Notes under the pieces: model-generated
What the model was told of the DNA's origin: nothing
Databases searched by the model: none
What the model saw: the letters and a program-made list of their open reading frames with translations, nothing else
DNA from: Roseibium sediminicola
GTDB taxonomy: Bacteria > Pseudomonadota > Alphaproteobacteria > Rhizobiales > Stappiaceae
NCBI RefSeq assembly: GCF_023156505.1
Contig: NZ_JALNMJ010000003.1
Coordinates: 310,001 to 374,000 of the forward strand
DNA length: 64,000 nucleotides
Reading direction: 5' to 3'
Part shown: positions 5,145-64,000 of the stretch, one piece after another
Numbering within the stretch: position 1 is the stretch's first letter
Layout: each line of letters begins with the position of its first letter
Program-made: the position numbers and the translations under genes

Positions 5145-5203
5145 GGGCCCGTTCCCATCTCAGCTGCGCCGGGAAGTTTGGCGGATTCGCCGGATCGCGC
5201 CAG

Positions 5204-6175
5204 CTATTTCGGAAATTCCAGGCCCATTTCGCGGTACCGTTCCGGATCGTCGGCCCAGTTCTCACGCACCTTGACGAACAGGAACAGATGCACCGGAGCC
5301 TCGATGATCTCGGAGATTTCGGCGCGCGCCGCCTGGGAAATCGCCTTGATTGTCGCCCCGCGCCTGCCGAGCACGATGCTCTTCTGGCTGTCGCGTTCGA
5401 CATAGATGGTCTGTTCGATCCGGGCGGAGCCGTCCTTGCGGCTCTGCCACTGTTCGGTCTCCACGGTGGAGATATAGGGCAGCTCCTGGTGGAGCCGCTC
5501 GAACAGTTTCTCGCGGGTGATTTCCGCCGCCAGAATGCGCAGGGGAAGATCGGACGGCTGGTCTTCCGGATAGAGCCAGGGGCCGTCCGGCACCTTCGCC
5601 GCGAAATGATCGAGGATCGCCTGTGTGCCGTCGCCCGTCAGAGCGGAGATCATGAACGTCTCTTCGAACTGGACATATTCATTGGCTTTTTGCGCCAGCT
5701 GCAGCAATTTCTCGCGCTTGGCCACGTCTGTCTTGTTGAGGATCAGCACCCTGGGAGCAGACTGGTTTTGCAGCCGCTTCAAGATGTTCTCGACTTCCTC
5801 GTCGATGCCCTTGCGGGCGTCGATCAGGAGCGCGATCAGGTCCGCGTCTCGGGCACCGCCCCAGGCGGTGTCGACCATGGCGCGGTCGAGCCGGCGCTTG
5901 GGCTTGAAGATGCCGGGGGTGTCGATGAAGACCAGCTGTGCGGCCCCATGCATGGCGACGCCACGCACGATGGTACGGGTCGTCTGCACCTTGTGGGTCA
6001 CGATCGAGACCTTGGTGCCGACAAGCTGATTGATCAGCGTCGACTTGCCGGCATTCGGCGCGCCGATCAGGGCAATTAAGCCGGCCTTGGTGCCCTCCGG
6101 CATTTCCGGGATAGGTTCCGGCAAAGGCATGTCGAACCGGGGCGGGGGAGACTGAAAGCCGTCCTCTTCGTCCAT
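5204..6175 (-). CDS. era: GTPase Era, 16S rRNA maturation factor
   Basis: Era binds the 3' end of 16S rRNA and couples 30S assembly to growth. The G1 loop GAPNAGKSTL, G3 DTPGIF and G4 NKTD are intact, followed by a C-terminal KH domain (residues about 240-320) that includes GRRGATIKAISQAARAEI. The annotated ATG at 6175 gives 323 residues with a proline-rich leader before the G domain. A TTG at 6205, 7 bp after the rnc stop and 10 bases after an AAGGAA, is an equally plausible start giving 333 residues. The tight spacing with rnc points to one transcript. Confidence 0.95.
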   Translation of the reverse strand: MDEEDGFQSPPPRFDMPLPEPIPEMPEGTKAGLIALIGAPNAGKSTLINQLVGTKVSIVTHKVQTTRTIVRGVAMHGAAQLVFIDTPGIFKPKRRLDRAMVDTAWGGARDADLIALLIDARKGIDEEVENILKRLQNQSAPRVLILNKTDVAKREKLLQLAQKANEYVQFEETFMISALTGDGTQAILDHFAAKVPDGPWLYPEDQPSDLPLRILAAEITREKLFERLHQELPYISTVETEQWQSRKDGSARIEQTIYVERDSQKSIVLGRRGATIKAISQAARAEISEIIEAPVHLFLFVKVRENWADDPERYREMGLEFPK

Positions 6176-6212
6176 CGGTCCTTCAGGGGTGGTATTGTCG
6201 CTCAAAGTCGTT

Positions 6213-6920
6213 CTATTCCTTCCACACGCCTTCCCGGCGCAACACGGCTTCCGCCGCGCTTTGTTCCGCAATCCGCTTCGATCCGCCCTTGCCCTCGCCG
6301 GGTTTCAGGCCCTGTACCGTCACAGCCACAGTGAAGCTGGGCGCGTGGTCAGGACCTTCCCGGCCGGTCACGTCATAACGCGGCGTCGGCAGGCTTTTCG
6401 ACTGGGCCCATTCCTGCAACGTGGTCTTGGCGTCTCGCAACGGCCCGGACCAGGATAGCATACGTGGTTCCCAAAGGCGTTTCACGAAGCTTTCGGCGGC
6501 GCCGAAACCGCCGTCGAGATAAATAGCCGCGATCACGGATTCGCAGATATCCGCCAGCAGGGCGGTCTTCTTGCGGCCACCGGTCTGGGCTTCGGCCAGT
6601 CCGATGCGCATGGCGTCGCCGACACCGAGTTCCTGGGCGATTTCCGCGCAGGTTTCCCGCTTGACCATGTGGTTGAACCGGCGGGCGAGTTCGCCTTCAT
6701 CGGCCTTGGGAAAATGCTTGTGGAGCATCGAGGCGATCACCAGGCCGAGCACCCGGTCGCCGAGAAACTCAAGCCTCTGATAGCTGCCGGAAATGGTCTC
6801 GGACGGGGCCAGCGCGCTGGCATGCGTGAGCGCGACCCGCAACAGCTCCAAATCCTTGAAGTCATATTGCAGGGCGGCCTTCAGCGCCGATACGGGGCTT
6901 CTTAGCGGTTGTTTGTTCAT
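6213..6920 (-). CDS. rnc: Ribonuclease III
   Basis: The 235-residue product is a double-strand-specific endoribonuclease that processes rRNA and structured mRNAs. The RNase III signature RLEFLGDRVLGLVIA (about residues 49-63) carries the catalytic acidic residues. A second acidic cluster follows in LLADICESVIAAIYLDGG. The C-terminal part (about 160-230) has the dsRNA-binding domain, ending near GSKRIAEQSAAEAVL. The gene lies between lepB and era, the usual alphaproteobacterial order. The length is normal. Confidence 0.96.
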   Translation of the reverse strand: MNKQPLRSPVSALKAALQYDFKDLELLRVALTHASALAPSETISGSYQRLEFLGDRVLGLVIASMLHKHFPKADEGELARRFNHMVKRETCAEIAQELGVGDAMRIGLAEAQTGGRKKTALLADICESVIAAIYLDGGFGAAESFVKRLWEPRMLSWSGPLRDAKTTLQEWAQSKSLPTPRYDVTGREGPDHAPSFTVAVTVQGLKPGEGKGGSKRIAEQSAAEAVLRREGVWKE

Positions 6921-6959
6921 GCAGCAGCTTTGCGTTCGGACTGCGCGGGCGACGGACGG

Positions 6960-7712
6960 CTAGAGTGTCCGGCCGATCCGCTCCCAGCGCACGGTCCATG
7001 GCCAGGTCCAGATTTGCCAGGCCGGTGTCTCGTCCTTGATGGAGAAGAACAGGATTTCGGCGCGTCCCATGAAGTTTTCGAGCGGAACATAACCGACCCG
7101 GCCCTGATAGCGGCTGTCGACGGAATTGTCCCGATTGTCGCCCATCATGAAGAAGTGGCCTTCCGGGACCTTGTACTCCCGGGTGTTGTCCTTCTCGCCA
7201 TTCGGGTTCAGATCAAGTGTTTCGTAGGAAACGCCGTTGGGCAGGGTCTCGCGGAAGCGCGGCACGCGGCGCACGATTCCCGAAGAGGATTGTTCGATAT
7301 AGTCGTCGATCCGTTCCCGCTTTACCGGTTCGCCATTGATGTGAACAACTCCGCCCAGCACCTGGACTGTGTCGCCCGGCAGGCCGATCACCCGCTTGAT
7401 GTAATCGATGGACGGGTCGGTCGGCAGCTTGAACACCGCGATGTCGCCGCGCTCGGGCTCGGCGGACCAGATCCGTCCGGAAAAGGGCATCAGGCCAAAG
7501 GGGAAGGAATACCGGGAATAACCGTAGCTGTATTTGGAGACAAACAGGTAGTCGCCGATCAGCAGCGTGTCTTTCATCGATCCTGACGGGATGTTGAACG
7601 GCTGAAACAGGAAGGTCCGCACGATCAGGGCAAGCAGCAGCGCCTGGACGATGACTTTGACGGTTTCCGTCAGGCCACTGTCCTTTTCTTTCTTATTGTC
7701 CGTCACGCTCAT
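6960..7712 (-). CDS. lepB: Signal peptidase I
   Basis: This membrane-bound serine protease removes signal peptides from secreted proteins. One N-terminal membrane segment (VIVQALLLALIVRTFLF) precedes the catalytic serine in PSGSMKDTLL (Ser45). The catalytic lysine lies in YIKRVIGLPGD (Lys106), and the GDNRDNSVDSR box is present near residue 180. The start at 7712 is chosen because AAGGGATAAA lies directly upstream. An upstream in-frame ATG at 7727 would add five residues and has a poorer site. It is followed by rnc 39 bp downstream. The length of 250 residues is normal. Confidence 0.96.
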   Translation of the reverse strand: MSVTDNKKEKDSGLTETVKVIVQALLLALIVRTFLFQPFNIPSGSMKDTLLIGDYLFVSKYSYGYSRYSFPFGLMPFSGRIWSAEPERGDIAVFKLPTDPSIDYIKRVIGLPGDTVQVLGGVVHINGEPVKRERIDDYIEQSSSGIVRRVPRFRETLPNGVSYETLDLNPNGEKDNTREYKVPEGHFFMMGDNRDNSVDSRYQGRVGYVPLENFMGRAEILFFSIKDETPAWQIWTWPWTVRWERIGRTL

Positions 7713-7816
7713 TTTATCCCTTAACATGTTGTTCGGCGGTCCTCGCGGCGCCAGCGCTTCTCAGCGCATCTCTTAGCCTTTCCGCTGGCCGGAAGCAATG
7801 CGACCGGCCGCCCGGT

Positions 7817-8257
7817 CTACGGCTTTGCGGAGGAAACCGCGTTGGGAGGTTCAGGCCAATCGGCGGGCCATGCGGAAATCACCACAAATGCCTGCGCCAG
7901 CGGGAAATCATCGGTGATCGTCAGGTCGATGGTGGTCTTGAAACCGCTCGGAGCCATGGCGGCCAGCCGCTCTGCCGCGCCGCCGGTCAGGGCAATGGTT
8001 GGTTTGCCTGAAGGCAGGTTGACCACGCCCATTTCGCGCCAGGCGACACCCATGCGGATGCCGCTGCCAAGGGCCTTGGAGCAGGCTTCCTTGGCGGCAA
8101 AGCGCTTGGCATAGGAGGCTGCACGCTCGGCGCGACGGTCGGACTTGGCGCGTTCGATCTCGGTGAACACCCGGTTGGTGAACCGGTCGCCGAACCGTTC
8201 CAGCGTCTTCTCGATCCGGCGGATATCGATCAGATCGCTGCCAATCCCTAAGATCAT
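7817..8257 (-). CDS. acpS: Holo-[acyl-carrier-protein] synthase
   Basis: AcpS transfers 4'-phosphopantetheine from CoA to acyl carrier protein. The N-terminal [16 protein letters not shown] holds the metal-binding aspartate (Asp8), and [14 protein letters not shown] holds the conserved glutamate. I place the start at 8257 because the family begins at this MI(L/I)GIG motif. An in-frame ATG at 8287 would add ten residues without family support. The 146-residue length is slightly longer than E. coli AcpS because of a short proline-rich tail. It stands just upstream of lepB in the same direction. Confidence 0.94.
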
Positions 8258-8313
8258 GGTTGTGCTTTCAATCTGGTGTGTTGACACCTAGGTGGGCCGG
8301 CGCGCGGCGGAAA

Positions 8314-8916
8314 TCAAGCGCTGCCGTCTTCTTCCATCTGAGTGCGGGGCGCCGGGAACAATCCGTTGCCCTTGCTGGCGAGTTTGGTCCGGCGCCGGCG
8401 CTGATAGACCTCAACACTCTTGTAGACGATCACGTAGGAAATGGTCGCCACGACCAGGCCGAGGGGCACCGCGCCGATAAACATCGGCTTGAGCATGGGC
8501 CAGAGCGCGTCCAGCGATTTTGCGAACAGACCTTCCTGGAACTGCTGGTGCACCTTGTGCGGATCGGCTTTGGGCGCGTGGCCATGCAGGATCCATTGTC
8601 CAAGCTTGAAGGTGGAGGCCCAGATGAACGGGAAGGTGAGGGGATTGCCCACCGACGTTCCGAGCGCCGAGGCGATCAGGTTGCCGCGGATCAGATAGGC
8701 AAGGGCGAAGGCGGTGAGGAAATGAAAACCGACCAGCGGTGTGAAGGACGCAAAGGCACCCGCGGCAAAGCCGAGCGCAATCGCGTTGGGTGTCGCGGTC
8801 AGACGCAGCACCCGCTTGCTGAAATAGCGGGTCGACCGCGACCAGCTGTTTCGCGGCCAGACGGCGACGCGAAGTCGCTCTATCCTTGAGGGCCTATGTC
8901 TTCGGCGAAACAGCAT
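8314..8916 (-). CDS. DUF2062 domain membrane protein
   Basis: A 200-residue protein with a basic N-terminus and the hydrophobic DUF2062 core: the segments AIALGFAAGAFASFTPLVG and FLTAFALAYLIRGNLIASAL, and the conserved GNPLTFPFIW motif near residue 105. A last membrane segment (FIGAVPLGLVVATISYVIVY) precedes a basic tail. The family is widespread in alphaproteobacteria, often beside acpS or pyrE as here, and its biochemical role is not established. It is likely an inner-membrane protein. It follows pyrE by about 30 bp, suggesting co-transcription. Confidence 0.85.
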   Translation of the reverse strand: MLFRRRHRPSRIERLRVAVWPRNSWSRSTRYFSKRVLRLTATPNAIALGFAAGAFASFTPLVGFHFLTAFALAYLIRGNLIASALGTSVGNPLTFPFIWASTFKLGQWILHGHAPKADPHKVHQQFQEGLFAKSLDALWPMLKPMFIGAVPLGLVVATISYVIVYKSVEVYQRRRRTKLASKGNGLFPAPRTQMEEDGSA

Positions 8917-8947
8917 GGGTAATTGGTCGTATCCGTCGTTTCAGGTG

Positions 8948-9529
8948 TCAGTTCAATCCGCGGCTGCCCGGCTTTACCGCCGGAAGGGCGGCCAGTTCGG
9001 GCGGAAGATTGTCCGGTTCATAGGCCGGAACCTTGTATTCTGCCAGCGCGACCAGCGGTACCGAGACGTCGGCCTCGCCACCGGAGCGGTCGATCAGGCA
9101 GGCTACTGCCAGAACTTCAGCACCAAGAGCTTTCAACGAGGTTACCGTTTCCCGGCTCGACAGGCCGGTGGTGACAATATCCTCGACAATGATGACGCGC
9201 GCGCCCTGAGGCATTTCGAACCGGCGCAGGCGGAACTCGCCGTCTTCGCGTTCCACCCACATGGCCGGCACGCCGAGATGGCGCGCGGTTTCATATCCCG
9301 GAATGAGGCCGCCCAGAGCCGGCGAAACGATATAGTCGATCTCGCCGAGACCGGCGTCCTTGATCTTTTCGGCAAGCGCCTTGCACAGGGTTTCGGTCTT
9401 GTCCGGATACATGAACACCCGTGCCTTCTGCAAAAACACAGGGCTGCGCAGTCCCGAGGTCAGGATGAAATGACCCTCCAGGATGGCGCCGGCGTCGCGA
9501 AACTGGGACAACACTTCGTCACGAGTCAT
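8948..9529 (-). CDS. pyrE: Orotate phosphoribosyltransferase
   Basis: PyrE makes OMP from orotate and PRPP in de novo pyrimidine synthesis. The PRPP-binding loop [18 protein letters not shown] (about residues 111-128) is intact. The conserved [14 protein letters not shown] and [12 protein letters not shown] stretches are also present. The length of 193 residues fits the alphaproteobacterial form. It lies just downstream of the rsh gene (gap 32 bp) on the same strand and upstream of the DUF2062 gene. Confidence 0.95.
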
Positions 9530-9561
9530 TTCTCAAATTCCTTCCTTGGCCGTCTCGCGGT

Positions 9562-11805
9562 CTATCCGTTCACCCGACTGACGCTCGACACATTCGGCTT
9601 GGTCCGCAATTGATTGATAATCCGGTTCAGATGCTTCAGGTCCCAGACTTCCAGATCAATGATCATCTGGTGAAAATCGGGCGCCCGCTGAACCATTTTC
9701 ACGTTGTCGATGTTGCCGCTGTTCTCTCCGATCACCTGGGCAATGGTGGCCAGGGAACCGGGTTCGTTGGCGGCCGATATGTCGAGACGGGCAGGGAAAC
9801 GCTCCGGATTGTTGACATCGATATCCCAGCGCACATCCACCCAGCGTTCGGTCTGGTCGTCGAATTCCTTCAGGGCGGGCGACTGTATCGGATAGATGGT
9901 CAGTCCTTCCGACGGGGTCAAGATGCCGACGATCCTGTCACCGGGCACCGCGCCGCCGTCGGGCGCATAGGACACCGGAATATCACCTGAAAGGCCACGG
10001 ATCGGCAGGGCGGGGCCTTCACCTTCCGGCTGTCCGGCCTCCGGCGCGCCGCCCGGGTGGAGTTCACCGGGCGGGATGCGGAATTTCAGGCCATGGCCCT
10101 GCTTCAGGCCGAACCAGCCTTCCTCGACCGGCGGTCCGGAAATGGCGACACGCTCGTCCTGGTAGTCCGGATGGGCCGATTTCAGCACGGTCTGGGCGCT
10201 GAGATCGCCGCGGCCGACCGCTGCCAGCAGATCGGCGACGCTCGACTGGTGGAGGGTGTCGAGAACAGCTTCCAGCAGGTCTTCCGAGTAGACCTTGTCG
10301 GCGCGGGCGAAGGCGCGCTTGAGAATATGCTCGCCAAGCGCGCCATATTGCTTGCGCACGGATTCCCGCGTGGCGCGGCGGATCGCCGCGCGGGCCTTGC
10401 CGGTGACGGCGATGGCCTCCCAGGCGGGCGGCGGTGTCTGCGCGGGCGAGCGGATGATCTCGACCTCGTCGCCATTATGCAGCTCGGTCACCAGCGGCAT
10501 GATCTTGCCGTTGATCTTGCAGCCGACGCAGGTGTTGCCGATGCCCGTGTGAACCGCATAGGCGAAATCGATCGGCGTCGCGCCGCGCGGCAGTGCGATC
10601 AGGCGGCCCTTGGGCGAGAAACAGAACACCTGGTCGTGGAACAGTTCCAGCTTGGTGTTTTCAAGGAATTCTTCCGGTGTGTCGCCCTGGGCCAGAAGCT
10701 CGGTCGTCCGGCGCAGCCATTCAAAGGCGCGGCAGTCTTCCGTGTGGCGGGCAATGTTTCGACCGCCAAATTCGCCGTCCTTGTAAAGCGCGTGCGCGGC
10801 GATGCCGTATTCCGCGACCCGGTTCATCGAAACGGTGCGGATCTGCAGTTCGACACGCTGGCGGGACGGACCGACGATGGTCGTGTGGATCGACTTGTAG
10901 TCGTTCTGCTTCGGCGTCGAGATGTAATCCTTGAACCGCCCCGGCACGGTCGGCCAGGTGGTGTGGATGACGCCCAGCACCCGGTAGCAAGCCTCGACCG
11001 TGGCAACAGTCACGCGGAAGCCGTAAATGTCGGACAGCTGTTCAAAGCCGATTGCCTTGCGCTGCATCTTGCGGAAAATCGAATAGGGCCGCTTTTCGCG
11101 CCCTTTCACCACCGCCGCCATGCCGCGCTCGCTCAGACGTTCGGTGAGCGTGGTCTCGATGTCCAGGATCAGGTCGCGATTGCGCTCACGCAAATCCGCC
11201 AGCCGGTCCGTGATGGTCTCATAGGCTTCCGGATTGAGCGTCTGGAAGGAAATGTCCTCCAGTTCCTCGCGCATGTCATGCATGCCCATGCGACCGGCGA
11301 GAGGCGCATAGATTTCCATGGTCTCTTCGGCGATCCGGCCGCGCTTGTGCTCCGGCATGTGATGGAGCGTGCGCATGTTGTGCAGCCGGTCCGCCAGTTT
11401 GACCAGCAGCACGCGGACGTCGTCGGCAATCGCCAGCAGCAGCTTGCGGAAGTTTTCCGCCTGCTTGGCCTTGCGGGAAACCAGGTCGAGACGGCTGATC
11501 TTGGTGAGGCCGTCGACAAGCTTGCCGATTTCCTCGCCGAACAGGCTGTCGATCTCTGACCTGGTGGCATCCGTGTCCTCGATCGTGTCGTGCAGCAGCG
11601 CGACAGCGATGGTCGCGTCATCGAGACGCAGATCGGTGAGGATTGCGGCAACTTCGAGTGGATGGGAAAAATAGGGGTCGCCAGACGCGCGCATCTGGGA
11701 GCCATGTTTCTGCATGGCGTAGACATAAGCCTTGTTGAGCAAGGCTTCGTCAGCTTCCGGATTGTAACGCGTAACCCGTTCAACGAGTTCGTATTGACGC
11801 ATCAT
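9562..11805 (-). CDS. rsh: Bifunctional (p)ppGpp synthetase/hydrolase (RelA/SpoT, Rsh)
   Basis: The product of about 747 residues controls the stringent response. Domains in order: an HD hydrolase (YFSHPLEVAAILTDL and ALLHDTIEDTDA), a nucleotidyltransferase synthetase (YKSIHTTIVGPSRQRVELQIRT written in two parts: YKSIHTTIV, then VELQIRT), a TGS domain (PIDFAYAVHTGIGN) and a C-terminal ACT domain (NEPGSLATIAQVIGENSGNI). Both catalytic halves look intact, so the enzyme should be bifunctional. It is the only long Rsh in the window, as is usual for alphaproteobacteria. A double ATG at 11805/11802 is preferred; an ATG at 11826 is an alternative. It follows rpoZ on the same strand. Confidence 0.95.
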   Translation of the reverse strand: MMRQYELVERVTRYNPEADEALLNKAYVYAMQKHGSQMRASGDPYFSHPLEVAAILTDLRLDDATIAVALLHDTIEDTDATRSEIDSLFGEEIGKLVDGLTKISRLDLVSRKAKQAENFRKLLLAIADDVRVLLVKLADRLHNMRTLHHMPEHKRGRIAEETMEIYAPLAGRMGMHDMREELEDISFQTLNPEAYETITDRLADLRERNRDLILDIETTLTERLSERGMAAVVKGREKRPYSIFRKMQRKAIGFEQLSDIYGFRVTVATVEACYRVLGVIHTTWPTVPGRFKDYISTPKQNDYKSIHTTIVGPSRQRVELQIRTVSMNRVAEYGIAAHALYKDGEFGGRNIARHTEDCRAFEWLRRTTELLAQGDTPEEFLENTKLELFHDQVFCFSPKGRLIALPRGATPIDFAYAVHTGIGNTCVGCKINGKIMPLVTELHNGDEVEIIRSPAQTPPPAWEAIAVTGKARAAIRRATRESVRKQYGALGEHILKRAFARADKVYSEDLLEAVLDTLHQSSVADLLAAVGRGDLSAQTVLKSAHPDYQDERVAISGPPVEEGWFGLKQGHGLKFRIPPGELHPGGAPEAGQPEGEGPALPIRGLSGDIPVSYAPDGGAVPGDRIVGILTPSEGLTIYPIQSPALKEFDDQTERWVDVRWDIDVNNPERFPARLDISAANEPGSLATIAQVIGENSGNIDNVKMVQRAPDFHQMIIDLEVWDLKHLNRIINQLRTKPNVSSVSRVNG

Positions 11806-61996: not shown

Positions 61997-62018
61997 TCTG
62001 GAAAATTGTCCGGAAAAA

Positions 62019-62095
62019 TGGTCGGGCAGGCCGGATTTGAACCGACGACCCCTTCACCCCCAGTGAAGTGCGCTACCAGGCTGCACCGCCTTCGG
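62019..62095 (-). tRNA. tRNA-Pro(GGG), 3' portion only; probable island attachment site
   Basis: On the minus strand the sequence from about 62084 down to 62019 is a normal proline tRNA: D-arm region GCAGCCTGGTAGCGC, anticodon arm CTTCACTGGGGGTGAAG with anticodon GGG, T-arm with TTCGAATCC, then CTGCCCG, A and an encoded CCA. The 3' acceptor strand CTGCCCG needs CGGGCAG at the 5' end, but the sequence there is CCGAAGG, which pairs at only about three or four of seven positions. The tRNA is therefore probably a non-functional remnant left as attR/attL by site-specific integration. The match to normal tRNA ends at about 62084. Confidence 0.8.
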
Positions 62096-62509
62096 CTATC
62101 ATAGAAGACTGAATGAATTCAGCTGCTTATGGCAGTCTACGATCTTCCTTTCGCTACTGCAAGACCCGAATTTATCGTACTAGCTGTGCCCACAGTGTGC
62201 CAGGAGTGTGCCAGGGGCTCCGGTATATACACAGCAGCCACACACTTGAATTCAGGAGTTTTGTACAGACGGGGAAAGGACTGCAGTTCGGAAGGGCGGG
62301 GGATGCTGCCACCCCGGGGGTATGGGGATACTGAGCATGGCCCATCCATATTTTCTGTTGCTGGAGGTTGTCCAATCCAAAGTCAAAACTTTGATGCTGC
62401 AAAAACTCCCCACGGTGCGGCTTGGCACCTCTTTTCAACATCGCCTGAATGAGATACAACTTATAATTGTTTATGTGTTCGCAGCGGGTTGAAGTATGGC
62501 GGAAATTGC
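62096..62509. other. Island leader region without a supported gene
   Basis: About 400 bp between the tRNA remnant and the SIR2 gene. It contains the direct repeat GTGTGCCAGG (twice in 22 bases, around 62195-62217) and a TATAAT hexamer at 62462-62467 that could be the -10 of the defence operon. Short open frames on both strands have no recognisable product. Confidence 0.4.
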
Positions 62510-63535
62510 GTGACAGAAGAAGATATCTCGAAGGTTGCTCAAGCCTGTTTTCAAGGCTGTCCTACCATCGTCCTTGGTAGCGGGGCTTCGATGCCTCATG
62601 GACTCCCAAGCATGGGCGATTTGAGCACATACCTTTGCAAAAACATCAACGTAGAAGGCAAAGCCGAAAAAGACGCCTGGTTGACGGTCGAGAACGCTCT
62701 CTCCAACGGCGACCACCTTGAAGCGGCTTTGGAGGGTAAGAATCTGCCCAACTCACTTCTGTCGAAAATCGTAGGTTTGACCTGGCGTTGTGTGAACGAC
62801 AAAGACATGCTGCTATTGGAAGCCGCAGGCACCGACAATGAGAATTTCGCGTTGGGGGAGTTGCTGGCGAGTATGTTCAGCAGCACCCAAAACGAGATTC
62901 ACGTCGTTACTACCAACTATGACCGCGTTGCTGAGTTTGCTTGTAATTCCAAGAACGTGCTGTTTCAGACAGGCTTCGCACCGGGTTACATTCAAAAATG
63001 GGAAAGCACGGGGCGCGTCAAGTTTACACACGGCACCAAGCCGTCCCGCGTCGCAAAAATCTGGAAAATTCATGGTTCGCTCGACTGGTTTCGTACTGCG
63101 GATGAGAGGACCATTGGGCTCCCCGTGTTCGAACTGCCTTCAGCTGAGCACTACACTCCGCTCATCGTTACCCCAGGTCTAAACAAATACGAGAAAACTT
63201 ATGAGGATCCCTTTAGAACAACCATCAACGGGGCGGACGCCGCACTAAAAAATGCCTCCGCTTTCCTCTGTGTAGGCTTCGGATTTCGAGACCAGCACAT
63301 CCATCCGAAGATTATCGAGCGATGCCGGGAGAGGAATGTGCCCACCGTGGTTCTGGCACGCACGCTGACAGATGAGGCAAAAAGCTTTCTGAAAGAAAAG
63401 GCGGGTACGAACTATTTGGGCATCGAACGATCCGGAACTGGGAGCCGGGTTTTCTCGCCAACTTCGCCAAAGGGAAGCGAGGTGAACATGCCAGATCTTT
63501 GGTCCCTCGACGGCTTCAACAATTTAGTCCTATAG
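62510..63535 (+). CDS. SIR2 domain protein of a SIR2-HerA defence pair
   Basis: A 341-residue protein with a SIR2-like domain. The nucleotide loop is VLGSGASMPHGLPSMGD (residues 21-37), followed by VVTTNYDRVAE (133-142), the catalytic-type histidine in KIHGSLDW (His188) and GFGFRDQHIHP (256-266). These elements mark the NADase-type SIR2 of phage defence systems. GTG at 62510 has GCGGAA seven bases upstream; a TTG at 62489 is the alternative. The HerA-like gene starts 9 bp after its stop. Known SIR2-HerA complexes cleave NAD+ and DNA upon infection; the same role is inferred. Confidence 0.85.
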   Translation: MTEEDISKVAQACFQGCPTIVLGSGASMPHGLPSMGDLSTYLCKNINVEGKAEKDAWLTVENALSNGDHLEAALEGKNLPNSLLSKIVGLTWRCVNDKDMLLLEAAGTDNENFALGELLASMFSSTQNEIHVVTTNYDRVAEFACNSKNVLFQTGFAPGYIQKWESTGRVKFTHGTKPSRVAKIWKIHGSLDWFRTADERTIGLPVFELPSAEHYTPLIVTPGLNKYEKTYEDPFRTTINGADAALKNASAFLCVGFGFRDQHIHPKIIERCRERNVPTVVLARTLTDEAKSFLKEKAGTNYLGIERSGTGSRVFSPTSPKGSEVNMPDLWSLDGFNNLVL

Positions 63536-63544
63536 GCGGTCCTT

Positions 63545-64000
63545 ATGCCCATTTTTGATTTCTCAGACAAAGAAGCACTTGGAAGCGTTATTTCCGTGGA
63601 CACTGCAGCAGCTACAATCCGTGTCGATGATCTTGATCGTTTGAAGCGTCTCCAGGTCAACCGGTTAGTGGTTCTTCAAAGCAGTAGGCCTGGACAACAT
63701 CTGATCGGCATTGTCGTGAAGATCACCCGCAAGCCTGATGCGCAAGAGTTGAACGAAACTGAGCTTGGCGACGACGAACTTGTTCCGAACGAAAACAATC
63801 TTGTGAAGATCACACTTATCGGCACGCTTTTGAACCGAGTCGGGAGCGATCAAAATGTGTTTCGCCGGACTCTTGAGACTGTTCCCGAAATCGACGCGAA
63901 TTGCTTTTCGTTGGAAGGGGATCGACTCACAAAATTCATGCAAGTGATCTCTGATGTCGATACTGACGGGCCAAAGTTGTCGTTGGGAAATTTCACGTTA
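63545..64000 (+). CDS. HerA-like ATPase, N-terminal part only (cut by window edge)
   Basis: A frame starting ATG at 63545 stays open for 152 codons to the window end. The N-terminus ALGSVISVDTAAATIRVDD, followed by VNRLVVLQSSRPGQHLIGIV, has the pattern of the HAS-barrel that opens HerA-type translocases. The Walker A and B motifs would lie beyond the edge. It is 9 bp downstream of the SIR2 gene, so the two are one operon. The HerA assignment rests on the barrel and the pairing, not on the ATPase core. Confidence 0.78.
   Translation, partial: MPIFDFSDKEALGSVISVDTAAATIRVDDLDRLKRLQVNRLVVLQSSRPGQHLIGIVVKITRKPDAQELNETELGDDELVPNENNLVKITLIGTLLNRVGSDQNVFRRTLETVPEIDANCFSLEGDRLTKFMQVISDVDTDGPKLSLGNFTL

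Follow-up and report, generated by a model that had tools for sequence, protein, structure and literature searches.

A SIR2–HerA gene pair of a separate subtype, predicted to act in phage defence, on an integrative element in tRNA-Pro of Roseibium sediminicola

Anti-phage systems of the SIR2–HerA (Nezha) kind are represented by solved complexes from Escherichia coli (8j4u and 8su9) and Paenibacillus (PsSIR2; 8w9l and 8wld), and by 8yhx. According to the literature, the HerA–Sir2 complex has a 6:12 composition and a mass of ~1 MDa, with phage genome degradation as its effect in a review table (PMC12948488). In Vibrio Nezha, replacement of SIR2 N168 or H227 by alanine abolishes immunity and deletion of herA lowers it (PMC11559045), and SIR2/HerA pairs from Streptococcus thermophilus protect when cloned (PMC11514479). 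The HerA–DUF4297 system, whose effector is a Cap4-like nuclease, has the same stoichiometry and becomes active on assembly (PMC12198126). Here, we describe a SIR2–HerA gene pair at the right edge of a 64,000-nucleotide stretch of Roseibium sediminicola DNA (the window; C23:310001-374000, contig NZ_JALNMJ010000003.1, from a genome of 62 contigs and 6.35 Mb), for which an earlier note had proposed a SIR2–HerA defence operon bordering an island. Since C23 ends at 378776, the 4776 bases past the window edge were also analyzed; coordinates there are window-equivalent, being positions of L004 (the same contig) plus 61000.

Their sequences support assignment of the two genes to SIR2–HerA anti-phage systems in the broad sense. 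The SIR2 gene (62510..63535, forward strand) starts with GTG, encodes 341 residues and matches PF13289 (2.6e-10); an alternative TTG start lies 21 bases upstream, at 62489, and the position equivalent to the GTG is the start in many relatives. Counted from this GTG, N136 (codon 62915-62917) and H188 (codon 63071-63073) are both intact and show no variation across two alignments, of 11 and 40 SIR2 proteins, which bears out the intact catalytic histidine of the earlier note. The HerA gene follows on the same strand after a gap of 9 bp, as described there, with its ATG at 63545. Its first 152 codons lie in the window (63545..64000) and the gene runs on to 65293, encoding a whole protein of 582 residues that matches PF01935 (2.4e-29). 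A check for Walker motifs in this second gene had been suggested, and both are present: Walker A as GSTGSGKS (residues 174-181) and Walker B ending in D432 E433, as read from L004. K180 and E433 are invariant in 38 aligned HerA proteins and D432 is found in at least 90% of them.

The order of the two genes is conserved. A contig scan with a HerA alignment matched at least 583 stretches and yielded 517 confirmed relatives; among the best 80 of these, a SIR2 open reading frame (ORF) lies directly upstream of HerA at 79 loci, 77 by an automatic adjacency rule and two (L081 and L087) by position, since ORF calling had placed the start of HerA far upstream there. The remaining locus (L088) starts within HerA, at the end of its contig. 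Both window proteins match PADLOC-DB entries over their full length (PDLC04087, 1e-124, for SIR2; PDLC04105, 3.5e-244, for HerA), so that a defence database already recognizes this subtype, although the PADLOC models state no mechanism and the matches leave the named PADLOC system unspecified. In profile searches and in fold comparisons based on models of monomers, the closest kin of the window SIR2 are the SIR2 chains of SIR2–HerA complexes, which rank before other SIR2 families, as the earlier identification would have it. ThsA, DSR2, KomC and the deacetylase sirtuins were considered and gave weaker matches by both criteria. The features shared with the solved systems are thus the gene order, the asparagine and histidine of the NADase, the SIR2 fold over ~300 residues and the HerA fold. 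Among the HerA relatives, one (L020; G325:C1, 10424-13437) carries a ~1.2 kb insertion that splits the gene after residue 502.

The pair was acquired with an integrative element that targets a tRNA gene, a conclusion confirmed by a tRNA scar at one end and an intact tRNA with an integrase at the other. The scar (62018..62084, reverse strand) is a 67-bp copy of the 3' portion of tRNA-Pro(GGG) and is 100% identical to C28:16417-16483, in keeping with the tRNA scar previously placed at the island boundary; the intact tRNA-Pro(GGG) lies at C28:16406-16482. ARAGORN detected no tRNA in the window, and Rfam scored a partial tRNA at the scar with 29.1 bits against a gathering score of 29. The island had been described as AT-rich, which holds relative to the left side (50.7% G+C in 62086-64000 versus 61.1% in 1-62018, and none as low among 602 sliding 1915-base segments left of the island) but not in absolute terms. 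On C28, a tyrosine integrase (Phage_integrase, 1.1e-13) adjoins the tRNA, and its frame stops after 315 residues at an IS21-like insertion (L005:6490-8895; its gene pair named IstA/IstB by eye), compared to 350 residues in the congener G407. In this genome, the two ends of the element lie on two contigs, the scar on C23 and the tRNA with the integrase on C28, and were not seen joined. The outer 122 bp of the IS21-like insertion also form the end of C23, which is most likely where the assembly broke, and the C28 sequence past the insertion is chromosome-like (58% G+C).

The congener G407 presents the corresponding arrangement on a single contig, which holds both the C28 left flank (83% identity) and the window left flank (78%), and between them an intact tRNA-Pro, an integrase region that is 84-85% identical and a tRNA scar ~8 kb away. 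The likeness on the scar side spans ~375 bp (62006-62379; 91.2% identity) and ends at 62379, so that positions 62085..62379, between scar and cargo, represent the end region of the element. Ends that are alike around an unlike interior indicate that similar elements entered the same tRNA with different cargo. In G418 and G415, the flanking gene of the window lies within 1.3-1.6 kb of the tRNA, i.e., without this island.

By analogy with the characterized systems, the likeliest mechanism is one in which a HerA ring assembles with the SIR2 NADase and activates it. HerA, with an N-terminal HAS-type region and a RecA-type ATPase motor, would form a hexameric ring that serves as a scaffold for SIR2 and handles DNA. 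Infection would trigger the complex, whereupon SIR2 would hydrolyze NAD+ by means of N136 and H188, and phage growth would be stopped at the expense of the infected cell. The combination of NAD+ depletion with DNA cleavage by a large complex, as put forward in the earlier note, is a transfer from distant relatives; for DNA cleavage by the window subtype, the present analysis gave no result for or against.

The pair nevertheless stands apart from the solved SIR2–HerA systems and falls outside the E. coli and Paenibacillus lineages that they represent. Its SIR2, at 341 residues, is compact compared to the 381, 415 and 428 residues of the solved systems, and in fold alignments its HerA is 22-28% identical to their HerA proteins. 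Matches in the PDB include none that is more than 33% identical to this SIR2–HerA branch, and among the matches listed in open-access literature searches there was no paper on the subtype. The solved HerA proteins nearest in sequence are instead those of DUF4297 systems (9c1m, 8ziq and 8xau), ahead of 8wiv and 8j4u, and the monomer models also place them closest by fold. Membership in DUF4297–HerA was rejected, since the partner gene is a SIR2 by profile and by fold. HerA–NurA, TdpA and DndH-type ATPases also matched, below the DUF4297 and PsHerA chains; by fold, the E. coli SIR2–HerA chains (Z score 28.1) fall below HerA–NurA (9x1m; 30.2). A profile of the window-type motor scored 236-241 bits against two DUF4297-type HerA proteins and 136-154 bits against five Nezha-type ones. 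It also scored 259-261 bits against L147 and L149, HerA-like motors with SIR2 partners; since these score as high as the DUF4297 type, motor similarity does not follow the effector. Scores for the first 140 residues, at the N-terminus, stayed below 4 bits against each listed HerA outside the subtype, which would be compatible with an effector-specific N-terminal adaptor on a shared motor. A comparison of the C-terminal 'hook' gave a weak score and was not used.

Trees of HerA and SIR2 were built to place the subtype. Their partner labels rest on neighboring ORFs scored with profiles built for this analysis or read by eye, 'Nezha-type' denotes HerA proteins with the longer kind of SIR2, and no characterized HerA is included. 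A first HerA tree held 40 rows, including very long rows and rows with an untyped partner, two of which, labeled 'unknown', later proved to lie beside a SIR2 when wider flanks were viewed. A second tree of 34 author-chosen rows dropped L026, L027, L030, L031 and L155 (long or odd), six window-type and three unknown-partner rows; L179 and L183 replaced L147 and L149 (the same genes), L185, L207, L209, L219, L220, L221, L223 and L225 were added, and the matches L208, L214, L216, L217 and L218 were left out. For the 'stand-alone' rows, wide flanks were inspected in seven of eight cases, and L154 was viewed with 1.5 kb.

In the 34-row tree, the 12 window-type HerA proteins form one clade (support 100/100), which groups with three DUF4297-linked, four stand-alone and three other SIR2-linked HerA proteins. 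On the other side of this split (98/97) are six Nezha-type HerA proteins, together with another four that stand alone and another two that are SIR2-linked. A single clade of window-type and Nezha-type HerA proteins is disfavored (log-likelihood difference -11; approximately unbiased (AU) test, p 0.0165), and a single clade of all SIR2-partnered HerA proteins is rejected (-188; p 2e-62), with the groups named after the earlier tree and the p values hence post hoc. The latter rejection comes chiefly from stand-alone HerA proteins that branch next to other SIR2-linked ones, a pattern that loss of SIR2 could explain. The 40-row tree is less clear on the separation of the window and Nezha types: two DUF4297 HerA proteins lie outside a group of window-type, Nezha-type and other sequences (90/83, midpoint root), a clade of window type with DUF4297 type is not rejected (p 0.28), and one clade of all SIR2-partnered HerA proteins is disfavored (p 0.016). 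The SIR2 tree has little resolution that deep and is compatible with the HerA split (AU p 0.49). Within the subtype, the nested order of the window, L037, L051 and L045 is identical in the SIR2 tree and the 34-row HerA tree, as expected if the two genes travel together. As a side observation, L185 (G423:C6, 4311-7047) and L225 (G993:C130, 2366-5142) represent another SIR2–HerA kind, with SIR2 of 342-346 and HerA of 565-605 residues, and form a pair of their own in the HerA tree.

A more tentative and less probable reading is that SIR2–HerA comprises more than one lineage. In it, the window subtype would be an ancient, independent union of a compact SIR2 and a HerA whose branch also includes DUF4297-partnered and stand-alone HerA proteins. 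HerA rings would then act as an interchangeable chassis that received effectors repeatedly, the N-terminal region would be the adaptor, and activation might differ from that in the solved complexes. If effector exchange on HerA did occur, a comparison of this branch with DUF4297–HerA would reveal how one motor activates a nuclease in one system and a NADase in another. The locus provides a whole example, with defined boundaries, of a large SIR2–HerA branch.

SIR2–HerA pairs are common, and that of the window is a distinct subtype of an established class. Across the taxonomic class, a SIR2 match is present in 13 of 385 genomes, this genome included, and HerA adjoins SIR2 in 10 of the 12 others. 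Among 45 genomes of the genus, eight (again including this one) have any HerA match (E 0.001), and only two, this genome and G398 (68% identity), carry the window-type subtype over its full length, a patchy presence that fits acquisition as defence cargo. By tblastn, 664 plasmid records match HerA of any kind, of which 12 reach at least 60% identity, with the best match (87%) from Phaeobacter inhibens. For the branch as a whole, record titles from the contig scan name Pseudomonadota, Bacteroidota, Clostridiales, Paenibacillus, Verrucomicrobia, a planctomycete, Arcobacter and others. Phage records gave three HerA matches; that in Blautia phage ON453898.1 (H41; 8776-10152), 32% identical over 86% of the query, is annotated as terminase large subunit.

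Taken together, we consider it highly probable that the pair is a SIR2–HerA anti-phage system brought by a small tyrosine-integrase element inserted into tRNA-Pro(GGG). Several results weigh against this conclusion. The SIR2 is 16-20% identical, over aligned parts, to the solved members; the NCBIfam cut-offs are missed by a wide margin (24 of 500 bits for SIR2_antiphage, 174 of 800 for HerA_antiphage and 307 of 850 for HerA_antiphage_2, the first two being the curated cut-offs of the E. coli-type equivalogs NF042942 and NF042943); two of the 12 other SIR2 matches in the class (L028 and L029) have no adjoining HerA; and a promoter scan for the sigma-70 consensus found two sites, against 3.2 expected from shuffles. 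The nearness of the window HerA to the HerA proteins of DUF4297 systems, in sequence and fold, would also suit a defence system in which SIR2 is not a bulk NAD+ hydrolase and acts instead in ADP-ribosylation or sensing, with DNA translocation by HerA as the main weapon or sensor. We regard this as improbable, as neither N136 nor H188 varies within the subtype, the matching residues are required for immunity in Vibrio Nezha (PMC11559045), and the SIR2-partnered L147 and L149 indicate that the motor predicts no effector.

If the pair were a defunct remnant of an element that can no longer move, this would account for the truncated C28 integrase and for a promoter scan in which no site stands out. 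Both defence genes are nonetheless full length with intact motifs, a broken integrase does not silence its cargo, and the scan was limited to one consensus, which makes decay quite unlikely. Least probable of all is that the pair serves another purpose than phage defence, for example DNA repair or the exclusion of plasmids. In its favor, one can cite the action of HerA with NurA in end resection (PMC12977600) and the many plasmid records with a HerA match. Against it, NurA is absent, SIR2 is the constant neighbor in the conservation set, and the patchy occurrence of the subtype in the genus fits defence cargo.

Further defence genes had been anticipated past the window edge, and two defence-type genes are found there, both on the reverse strand and convergent with HerA. 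A GIY-YIG-like gene (65323-65733; L004:4323-4733) encodes 136 residues, with a motif recognized by eye, a 33-residue match to UzuA (7.7e-6) and no Pfam match. An AspBHI-like modification-dependent restriction enzyme of 417 residues is encoded at 65875-67128 (L004:4875-6128; PF18062, 9.5e-64; mREase_II, 4.7e-158). As parts of the SIR2–HerA system they were rejected: by tblastn, with flanks of only ~1.5 kb at some loci, they occur at one of 100 related loci, L171, which is the window's own copy, marking them as fellow cargo.

Related elements suggest that the genus hosts a family of small elements that target tRNA genes and whose cargo can be exchanged. The G407 element in tRNA-Pro carries, at L163 (G407:C1:519001-536000) 5182-10464, a homologue of thymidylate synthase (PF00303, 1.6e-25) next to a protein resembling alpha-glutamyl/putrescinyl thymine pyrophosphorylase (PF18746, 2.1e-79), a pair that suggests thymine hypermodification, and also a PD-Lambda-2_B-like protein (6.8e-29). 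A second G407 element (L205; G407:C1:4595001-4610000), with an integrase that is 69% identical, adjoins tRNA-Arg(CCG) and has weak defence matches in one protein only. At L204 (G426:C1:5779501-5799000), an integrase that is 85% identical (L204:17320-18351) adjoins tRNA-Thr(CGT) and the other end is partly similar; the cargo includes homologues of MzaB, Vsr, a DNA methyltransferase and a ZorD/DpdE-type helicase, indicating that defence genes are also carried by related elements in other tRNAs.
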